From: Chloroflexota bacterium
Lineage (GTDB): Bacteria > Chloroflexota > UBA6077 > FW602-bin22 > JAMCYS01
Assembly: GCA_023473795.1 (NCBI GenBank)
Contig: JAMCYS010000148.1
Location: 1-35,103 of the forward strand
Direction: 5' to 3'
Length of the DNA stretch: 35,103 nt
Positions 7,283-10,319 of this stretch are shown here, one piece after another. A program made the translations under genes and the position numbers. The notes below the pieces were generated by a model. The model worked only from the letters and a program-made list of their open reading frames with translations. It searched no databases and was not told the origin of the DNA. Numbering within the stretch: the stretch's first letter is position 1; each line of letters opens with the position of its first letter.

Positions 7283-8179
7283 TTGGCTGTGGTAGTAACT
7301 TCAGTGCGTTCAGCGGCTGCTCCCTCGCCCCAGGCGACCCCTCCGGGCCGGCGCCTCCCGCCCCTCGCTTTCCCCCTGGTCCGGCGTCTTGGCCGGGAAT
7401 ACCGCTGGGTTATCTGGTTGGCGATGGCGCTCGTGGCCTTCAACCAGATGACGCAGATGTTCGCCTACTCGGTGCTGATACCCTCTTTGATGGCCGAGCT
7501 GCACCTCACCTACGCCCTGGCCGGCACGCTCACCTCGGCCTATACGCTCGCCATGTGCGCCACGATGGCTCCGGTGGGGATCATCGGCGACAGATTGGGC
7601 GTCCGTGCCCTGGTCCTGGCCGGCACGGTCGCTCTCCTCCTGGGGGCCTTTCTTTTCGCCAGCGCGAGCAACTACCCAGTGGCCCTGGCCTCACGCCTCT
7701 TGGTCGGCGCCGGGGCAGGCGTGGCCCTGGCGCTGCCGCCGCCGGTGCTCGCCTACTGGTTCAACAAGAGCGAGTATAAGTCAGTGACGGGGCTGCAGAT
7801 CAGCGTCGGCAAGACCGGTTCCGTCGTGGCGACCTGGGTGCTGCCCCCGCTCGTGGTGGCGCTGGGTTGGCGGCTGGGCTACTCGGCAATGTCGCTCGTC
7901 GGCGTGGCGACCCTACTATTGGTCTTCGCCGTGCAGGCCAACCGCCCGAGCGAAGTTGGCCTCCCAGACTCGCTAGGCATGGCCGTGTCCGACGATCAAA
8001 GGGAACGCTCCGCGCCAGAGCCGCCGCTGCCCTTCCGGCAGATGGTGCGCCAGCGCGACTTGCTGCTTCTGGCCATCAGCCAGGCCTTGATCTACATAGC
8101 CTACTTTGGCATGACCAACTGGCTGCCCACTTACTACCAGGTTAGCCAGCGCCGCCGTCCGTCCTTGGTCAGCCAGTAA
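7283..8179 (+). pseudogene. MFS transporter, 3' truncated
   Basis: The N-terminal part of a major facilitator superfamily permease. About seven hydrophobic helices can be followed, from WVIWLAMALVAFNQMTQ near residue 43 to ISQALIYIAYFGMTNWLPTY near residue 275. The loop 2-3 motif (GIIGDRLGVRA) is present. MFS proteins normally have 12 helices and about 400 residues, but here similarity stops at YYQV (about 8145). The last dozen codons read antisense through the neighbouring PAS gene and end at TAA 8177-8179. The missing C-terminal five helices make it almost certainly non-functional. The start is uncertain: TTG 7283 is used, but no clear ribosome-binding site is seen. The substrate is unknown. 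Confidence 0.8.
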
Positions 8180-8466
8180 TTCTCGTGCTCGTTGGGGAAC
8201 CGACCGGCCCGCAAGTCGGCGAAGACCACTTTCACCGCTTCAACTTCCTCGGGGAGGAGGAAGACATCCCAGAAGACCTTGCCCTGCACCTCGGCGCAGT
8301 AGTAGCCGGTCGCCTGCTCACATGACCGGTTGAAGCGCACGATCCGCCCCTCGCGGTCCAGCACCACGACCAGGCTGGCTATGGTATCCAGGATCGCGGC
8401 GCTGAGGTCCGGCGCAGCGGGCGCCCTCGGCCGTCGCGCCTGCCTCTTGACGTCAACACGCTCCAT
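8134..8466 (-). pseudogene. PAS-domain protein, 3' truncated
   Basis: A 110-aa fragment consisting of one PAS sensor domain: ILDTIASLVVVLDREGRIVR, then FNRSCEQATGY, FWDVFLLPEE and WLTKDGRRRWLTW. The sequence stops at TAG right where a PAS domain would continue (usually a W.NT-like strand), so the last strand and any output domain are missing. ATG 8466 has GGGGGAGA upstream on this strand, so the 5' end is intact. The 3' end runs directly into the cut end of the MFS gene. The full gene was probably a PAS-containing kinase or cyclase, but nothing in the window says which. Confidence 0.75.
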
Positions 8467-8772: not shown

Positions 8773-8819
8773 GGGTGGGCCCGGCCGGATGCGCACCAGC
8801 GACCAACCGGTTATGAGCC
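8773..8819 (-). repeat. Displaced 3' fragment of the CAU tRNA gene (direct repeat, copy 1)
   Basis: These 47 nt match 10186-10232, the 3' half of the intact tRNA from its anticodon loop to just past the discriminator base, with two differences (at 8791 and 8794, inside the T-loop). Similarity ends abruptly at 8819, and the 5' half of a tRNA is absent. Both copies are in the same orientation. An intact tRNA at one end and a 3' fragment downstream at the other is the footprint left by integrases that use tRNA 3' ends as attachment sites. The two T-loop changes imply that the fragment is no longer under selection. Confidence 0.85.
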
Positions 8820-8898
8820 CAACTGGCACGAAACAGGACCATAGTGCAACCAGCCACTCGGAAGCGGTGCCGGTTCAAGCAACACCGCCCGCCGGTGC

Positions 8899-9099
8899 CT
8901 AGCCATCGCGTTGCCGGTCTGGCGCGGCCTCCACTGCTTTAGCAATCAAGTCGTGCATCTGCTTGCCCACATTGGCAGAGCGGTGCCGGTCGCCCTTGGC
9001 AGCGCCGCCCTTCTTGCGTACGCGCTCGTAGTGCGCACTGGCCTGCATATCCGCCGTCTTGCCGCCCCGGCCGGCGTCTCGCATCGTTTTATAAGCCAT
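8899..9099 (-). CDS. KGG-motif small stress-type protein
   Basis: A 66-aa, strongly charged, probably disordered protein: it begins MAYKTMRDAGRGGKTADMQA and contains HYERVRKKGGAAKGDRHRSA. The RGGK and KKGGAAKG segments resemble the KGG repeat of small stress-induced bacterial proteins (YciG type). ATG 9099 is preceded on this strand by GGAG at suitable spacing. It lies 69 nt after a second protein with similar repeats, so the two may be co-transcribed. Its biochemical role is unknown. Such proteins are linked to general stress and desiccation responses in other bacteria. Confidence 0.6.
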   Translation of the reverse strand: MAYKTMRDAGRGGKTADMQASAHYERVRKKGGAAKGDRHRSANVGKQMHDLIAKAVEAAPDRQRDG

Positions 9100-9168
9100 C
9101 GCCCGTCTCCGTCACCCCTTGCCTTCCTGCTGGCACCGTGCCGCCGTCTTTCGCCTTCGCTCGTGGCC

Positions 9169-9483
9169 CTAGCGCCCTATCTCAGCGAACTGCTCACAGC
9201 CGTCCTTGGATAGTAGCACATCACTGCCCTTCTTGCCCATGTCGGTGAAGTGCTCACGGCCGTGCCCGGCGAGATTGACGGCCCCGCCCTTCCGCCCCGC
9301 TCGGGAGAGGTGCTCCACGCCGTACCGTTCCTTGATCAGCGTTCCACCTCGCCCGTCGGCCTCGTGCCTGTCTGTGCTTTCGCCCGCGGTACCACCGCCA
9401 GCACCGCCTGTCTGCCGCGGCAACACGCTCGCTTCTCGATGGTCTTTACTTATGACAGCACTTCCCTCGTCTGGCGGCCACAC
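9169..9483 (-). CDS. KGG-repeat protein (start uncertain)
   Basis: The C-terminal 65 residues contain three imperfect repeats of about 20 residues: GVEHLSRAGRKGGA, GREHFTDMGKKGSD and GCEQFAEIGR. These follow the pattern (G-x-E-H/Q-x3-x-G-R/K-K-G) of the KGG stress-protein motif. The frame is open upstream to 9756, but that part looks non-coding. GTG 9483 is given as a working start (104 aa) without a clear ribosome-binding site. A shorter protein is possible. It lies inside the segment bounded by the two tRNA repeats. Confidence 0.5.
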   Translation of the reverse strand: MWPPDEGSAVISKDHREASVLPRQTGGAGGGTAGESTDRHEADGRGGTLIKERYGVEHLSRAGRKGGAVNLAGHGREHFTDMGKKGSDVLLSKDGCEQFAEIGR

Positions 9484-9626
9484 AATGTTGGCGTGCTTCT
9501 TGCCGAGGCAATCGCAGCCCTCTACGGGGCCGTTAGTATGGCGCTCGCACGGGCGGGGGACTGGCGTACGCGGGCGCGATAGGGTACAACATAGGTGGCA
9601 CACTAGTCGGTGGTAGGAGATGTTTG

Positions 9627-9899
9627 ATGGCGACTCGACTTTACGTGGGCAACCTGTCTTACGGAACTTCAGCGGACGAGCTACGCGGCCTGTTTGCGCA
9701 GGCTGGCACAGTCGAAGATGTCCACATGCCAACAGACCGAGCTTCGGGGCAACCACGGGGGTTCGCCTTCGTGGAAATGACGAGCAAGGAAGAGGCAGAT
9801 AAAGCGATCCAAATGTTCAATGGCTACACGTTGGGTGGCCGGGAGCTGCGGGTCAATGAGGCCCGCGAGCGCGAGGAGCGCGGCCGCAGTAGGTACTAG
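9627..9899 (+). CDS. RRM-domain RNA-binding protein
   Basis: A 90-aa single RNA-recognition-motif protein. RNP2 (RLYVGNLSYG) is at residues 4-13 and RNP1 (RGFAFVEM) near residues 43-50. The beta4 region (LGGRELRVNEARERE) ends in a short basic tail, RGRSRY. This is the typical single-RRM bacterial protein, as in cyanobacterial cold-inducible Rbp proteins, which bind RNA and are often cold- or stress-regulated. ATG 9627 has TAGGAGA 6 nt upstream. The TTG three bases earlier would add one residue. It is the only plus-strand gene inside the segment flanked by the tRNA repeats. Confidence 0.93.
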   Translation: MATRLYVGNLSYGTSADELRGLFAQAGTVEDVHMPTDRASGQPRGFAFVEMTSKEEADKAIQMFNGYTLGGRELRVNEAREREERGRSRY

Positions 9900-10188
9900 C
9901 TGAACCCTCGCCGCGGGCGTTCCCTTTCCGCGAAAGCTCACACTGTCGCGTTCTTGCCGTAGGGGCCGTCTGTCACAAGTTGCCGGCCCAAGGTTCCTTG
10001 GGCTTGCCAGCGTTTCGCGGCCACTGCCGATCGGATGGCGGATGGACGTATGCTTTGCTATGCCTGGCGTGCCGCTGCCACGTGATGTTCTGATCCCACG
10101 TCTTTCCTCACTTATGTAGACAGGTGGGAACTAGAGTCCAACTAGTAGTGGCCTGCGAGGAACCGGTTAGTCCTGGGTTCACTGTGGG
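9900..10188. other. Gene-free stretch with one palindrome
   Basis: No gene is recognised. GCCCAAGG-TT-CCTTGGGC at 9986-10003 is a perfect 18-nt palindrome, about 90 nt after the RRM gene. It is not followed by a T-run, so its role as a terminator is doubtful. Confidence 0.4.
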
Positions 10189-10232
10189 TGGGCCCGGCCG
10201 GATTCGAACCAGCGACCAACCGGTTATGAGCC
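10186..10232 (-). repeat. Direct repeat copy 2 (3' half of the intact tRNA)
   Basis: This is the counterpart of the 8773-8819 fragment, with 45 of 47 positions identical. It covers the tRNA anticodon loop, T-arm and acceptor 3' strand plus 3 nt beyond. The distance between the copies is 1413 nt. Confidence 0.85.
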
Positions 10233-10260
10233 GGCCGCTCTGCCGCTGAGCTACGGGCCC
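10189..10260 (-). tRNA. tRNA with CAU anticodon (elongator Met or lysidine-type Ile2)
   Basis: A full cloverleaf of 72 nt can be folded. The acceptor stem GGGCCCG pairs with CGGGCCC, and the discriminator is A. The D-arm is GCTC/GAGC with a 7-nt loop, the anticodon stem is GCCGG/CCGGT with loop CTCATAA (anticodon CAT), the variable loop is 5 nt, and the T-arm is GCTGG/CCGGC with loop TTCGAAT. CCA is not encoded. The paired G1-C72 argues against initiator tRNA, which has an unpaired 1-72. Sequence alone does not decide between elongator tRNA-Met and tRNA-Ile2 (CAU read as lysidine-AU). The TTGGTCGCTGG stretch is reminiscent of Ile2. Confidence 0.93.
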
Positions 10261-10289: not shown

Positions 10290-10319
10290 ATTATACCCCG
10301 CCGAGAGCGAAGCCTTCAA
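10290..10319 (-). promoter_or_regulatory. Promoter of the CAU tRNA
   Basis: On the minus strand, TTGAAG (10314-10319) and a perfect TATAAT (10290-10295) are separated by 18 nt. Transcription would start near 10283, about 20 nt before the tRNA. Confidence 0.8.

Follow-up and report, generated by a model that had tools for sequence, protein, structure and literature searches.

The window, i.e. the whole 35,103-nt stretch of DNA analysed here, has a single tRNA gene; a direct repeat of the 3′ half of this gene encloses a short segment with three open reading frames (ORFs). The features considered below are the following (positions are those of the window):

10290–10319, minus strand: promoter-like site 30 nt before the tRNA, TTGAAG-18-TATAAT (a consensus match only)
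10187–10260, minus strand: intact tRNA with anticodon CAU, called by ARAGORN
10186–10232, minus strand: tRNA-side copy of the repeated core, the tRNA 3′ half plus 3 nt (repeat search and alignment)
8820–10185: enclosed segment without integrase, 1,366 bp, GC content 62.4% (mean of the genome, 65.5%)
9627–9899, plus strand: single-RRM RNA-binding protein, 90 aa (RRM_1, E = 5.3e-23), with a TTG upstream at 9624
9169–9483 (end approximate), minus strand: KGG-repeat/LEA_5-like ORF without ATG, start uncertain
8899–9099, minus strand: basic 66-aa ORF with motif RKKGGAAKG, KGG-like (from the ORF list)
8773–8819, minus strand: displaced copy of the 3′ half, the putative distal attachment-site copy, 45/47 identical, with T55>G and A58>C

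The tRNA was also found with Rfam model RF00005, at 10189–10260 with a score of 69.8 bits. Of 39 tRNA matches in the genome the best 30 were typed, and three CAU tRNAs are among them. The one in contig C62 shows initiator features, a 1–72 mismatch and three G–C pairs in the anticodon stem. The window tRNA has the pairs C4–G69 and C5–G68, which in Escherichia coli are features of tRNA-Ile2 recognized by TilS. Because of these two pairs the window tRNA is probably tRNA-Ile2, the AUA decoder; with the C62 gene initiator-like, the CAU gene of contig C71 would therefore be the elongator tRNA-Met.

The two copies of the repeat, 47 nt each and 1,413 nt apart, are 96% identical. The displaced copy is situated on the same strand as the tRNA, at its downstream side; read in the tRNA sense, it starts two bases ahead of the anticodon loop and ends 3 nt past the 3′ end. 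The blastn E-value of the match was about 1e-16 against the fetched tRNA(CAU) loci and 3e-16 against 0.70 Mb of sequence of the same genome. Beyond the repeat block, alignment detected no clear homology in the flanks at either edge; the best flank score, that of the 100-nt 5′ flank, was equalled by 10 of 200 shuffles. A consensus match search found no promoter-like site before the displaced copy. Both substitutions fall within the T-loop of this copy, while T55 and A58 are kept in the intact gene and in eight order- or class-level orthologues. Thus, what the first-pass annotation had read from the letters, an intact CAU tRNA with a direct 47-nt copy of its 3′ half in the orientation of an attachment site (same strand, 3′ fragment downstream), was borne out in full. 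Length, direction and side of the repeat match the attachment-site duplication left by a tyrosine integrase. At 10152–10169, directly downstream of the tRNA, a weaker match of 18 nt (83%) to a portion of its 3′ half is probably a chance similarity.

One could ask whether the 47-nt fragment itself is a chance similarity, or the whole arrangement an assembly join; the assembly is of metagenome style, with 170 contigs, and a join is possible at the nearby junction of MFS and PAS genes. However, with such an E-value, with copies that differ at two sites and share no identical run longer than 25 nt, and with the same pattern seen independently in contig C144 (below), we regard this explanation as very improbable. 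At the MFS/PAS junction (7283–8466) the ORFs of an MFS transporter and of a PAS protein are convergent, and both are truncated at the meeting point, at ~8134–8179. It had been proposed that this junction fits an unstable region; the double truncation was confirmed, but nothing ties the junction to the insertion, and a deletion unrelated to it, or a join made in assembly, could equally have produced the junction. Elsewhere in the window, a ribosomal protein L10 leader (RF00557) occupies 2592–2764, its expected place before rplJ.

By GC content the enclosed segment ranks at about the 13th percentile of equal-sized windows of its own genome; such a mildly atypical composition is weak evidence of foreign origin. 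A six-frame, stop-tolerant search of the 44.6-kb contig with PF00589 detected neither an integrase nor a remnant of one, which agrees with the absence of integrase noted at first pass, and searches with Pfam, NCBIfam and PF00589 found no integration or transfer genes among the three ORFs.

Two of these ORFs had been described as KGG-type proteins. The description is upheld in part for the ORF at 9169–~9483, which resembles LEA_5 (5.7e-6, under Pfam's cut-off) and shares about 42% identity with two intact, near-identical KGG-repeat proteins encoded in the same genome; the ORF at 8899–9099 had no Pfam or NCBIfam family match. Since the larger ORF has no ATG and carries a stop inside the repeat, at a point where the intact homologues continue, it has probably decayed; no match to it was found in plasmids or phages. 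Two near-identical KGG-repeat proteins of ~120 aa are encoded in contigs C85 (93–470) and C20 (16376–16738), in both cases near the end of the contig, and may stem from a recent duplication.

The RRM protein, correctly recognized at first pass, is 52–71% identical to proteins of order or class relatives and to a paralogue in its own genome, with identity up to 71% in the same order. Among viral contigs there was one distant match, and plasmids gave distant matches only; an RRM tree was too short to place the origin of the gene. Given RRM relatives in the same order and a paralogue in the genome, the cargo of the segment could be native to the clade. Thus, the suggestion that the insertion brought in ‘stress cargo’ found no support: the RRM gene is order-like, one of the KGG ORFs seems to be in decay, and the shift in composition is mild. 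Only from their position do we infer that an element brought the three ORFs along.

A census of tRNA fragments was made in about 0.70 Mb of the 4.44-Mb genome, chosen around tRNAs and integrases and supplemented with sampled contigs; each of 38 tRNA calls was searched against that sequence. A same-direction downstream copy of the 3′ half (E < 1e-9) was seen in this 0.70 Mb for two tRNAs only, tRNA(CAU) and tRNA-Val(UAC). The latter locus and three more with an integrase or a fragment of one are:

contig C144, 14518–14562 and 17282–17358: tRNA-Val(UAC) and a copy of its 3′ half, 44/45 identical
contig C152, 9421–10765: complete tyrosine integrase and a tRNA-Lys(UUU) 3′ half, 131 nt apart
contig C108, 5240–6668: integrase that is split over two overlapping frames and faces tRNA-Arg(CCU)
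contig C15, 11378–12109: C-terminal fragment of an integrase facing tRNA-Phe

The displaced copy in C144 begins inside the anticodon and has no flank homology. In the 2.7-kb segment that it delimits are the genes of a potassium-channel-like protein and of a DUF6308 protein; this segment is compositionally atypical (2nd percentile of GC, i.e. low, and 98th of tetranucleotides), and a PF00589 search found no integrase in it. In all three differences between copies across the window locus and C144, conserved or paired positions were hit, always on the displaced side; changes confined to displaced copies are as expected if these copies became free of selection. In C152 the tRNA-Lys(UUU) 3′ half begins with CTTTTAA, at the anticodon loop; an Eco57I-type restriction-modification protein comes next. 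The tRNAs typed (best 30 of 39 matches) included no intact tRNA-Lys(UUU). Several tyrosine recombinase genes were identified by PF00589 elsewhere in the genome. As these loci indicate, integration into tRNA genes with sites at the anticodon loop did occur in this genome, and different stages of integrase loss are seen at such sites. An inverted 50-nt partial copy of tRNA-Tyr (84%) was also observed in contig C25 (10048–10243), beside the gene and near the contig end.

Tandem tRNA copies are generally common in bacteria. A tandem duplication, with or without flank, in which the 5′ half of one copy decayed would account for the window locus with no integrase involved, and the degradation of the displaced copy alone would fit it. 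Still, no remnant of a 5′ half or of the tRNA flank was clearly detectable by the fragment, though the kept half is 96% identical, and the homology breaks off at the anticodon loop, as it does in the independent C144 copy; we find such a history quite improbable.

It is also unlikely that the segment was a small non-autonomous cassette, satellite or MITE-like, that at no time had its own integrase and owed its movement in trans to one elsewhere in the genome, with the C144 segment as a sister. One would then understand why segments of 1.4 and 2.7 kb, both lacking an integrase, have the same anatomy in a genome with resident tyrosine recombinases; on the other hand, alignment of the C144 segment with that of the window (contig C63) revealed no common sequence, ends included, the two use different tRNAs, and no integrase found in the genome adjoins a tRNA(CAU) 3′ half. 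One could speculate further, at long odds, that the lineage carries a set of integrase-free cassettes of 1–3 kb put at tRNA anticodon loops in trans; if so, resident integrases acting in trans would load accessory genes next to tRNAs in a modular way, one to three at a time.

The genomes available for comparison were of the same order or more distant, and their matches were mostly to the tRNA itself or to the RRM gene. No repeat was seen near eight order- or class-level orthologues of tRNA(CAU), but there was no synteny either; a scan of genome contigs for hdrA gave distant homologues only, hence no syntenic locus. The first-listed HdrA match, in a Chloroflexi MAG, was 53%, no more than a lead that the window's organism may belong to the Chloroflexota. 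Viral contigs contained no exact 22-nt stretch of the repeat core. The low divergence between the two copies fits an insertion that postdates the separation from all the relatives compared.

We consider it likely that a tyrosine integrase directed an insertion into the tRNA(CAU) gene and that mobility genes were then lost or had never been aboard, leaving a 1.4-kb relic. The attP site of a mobile element would have carried a copy of the tRNA(CAU) 3′ half, and the element would have recombined into the tRNA gene by a crossover at the anticodon loop. As the new 3′ half would come from the element, the tRNA gene would stay intact and keep its own promoter; the original 3′ half would be displaced to the far end, where, unexpressed, it would drift and acquire the two T-loop changes. 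The integrase and any transfer genes would since have been lost, or would never have been in the cassette and have acted from elsewhere. The remainder would be the relic with the RRM gene, the small KGG-like ORF and the decaying KGG-repeat ORF. Points against this reading are the absence of an integrase or a remnant of one from the contig, the length below 2 kb, the mild shift in composition and the order-type RRM gene. Of the island proposed at first pass we thus retain a tRNA-targeted insertion of integrase type, argued for by the geometry and by the parallel tRNA loci; a formerly larger size and mobility genes of its own would be conjecture. The mechanism is supported, and the relic is of an ordinary kind: a genuine attachment-site scar, most likely of a decayed tRNA-targeted element.

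A clean excision now may leave an altered T-loop (positions 55 and 58) in the assembly's only such tRNA, and the segment may thus be locked in; the idea is a weak one because the joined empty-site sequence is still called a tRNA by ARAGORN.

Anticodon-centred sites were reported in Islander for 2083 of 3919 islands, making them one of two common classes; Islander requires an integrase gene and a length of 2–200 kb (PMC4383910). As in Islander-type islands, the segment has a regenerated tRNA at one end and a same-direction 3′ fragment at the other; it passes the filters for orientation and configuration, with a fragment that reaches the tDNA end and a site of the anticodon-loop class (PMC4383910). 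Unlike these islands, it has no integrase and measures 1.37–1.41 kb, below 2 kb, so that Islander would reject it (PMC4383910). The segment also resembles a cis-mobilizable element (CIME), which has lost integration and transfer genes and retained attL and attR (PMC5704250). The segment similarly retains att-like repeats, at sites deduced from sequence, and has no integration or transfer genes; one of its att copies has two substitutions, and descent from an ICE or IME, or a capacity to be mobilized, would be conjecture. The ssrA islands of Dehalococcoides are delimited by the RNA gene and by directly repeated copies of its 3′ end, and likewise include several repeat-bounded units; they differ in the target (tmRNA), in the T-loop site, in the use of serine recombinases and in 20-bp repeats (PMC3146451). 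The characterization of the segment as a putative integrase-less remnant island, CIME-like, is well supported.

The segment would thus illustrate the decay of tRNA-targeted elements in a poorly sampled bacterial lineage. Standard island finders, which require an integrase, overlook integrase-less scars shorter than 2 kb; with two such scars seen in about 0.7 Mb, mostly around tRNAs and integrases, they may be under-counted.
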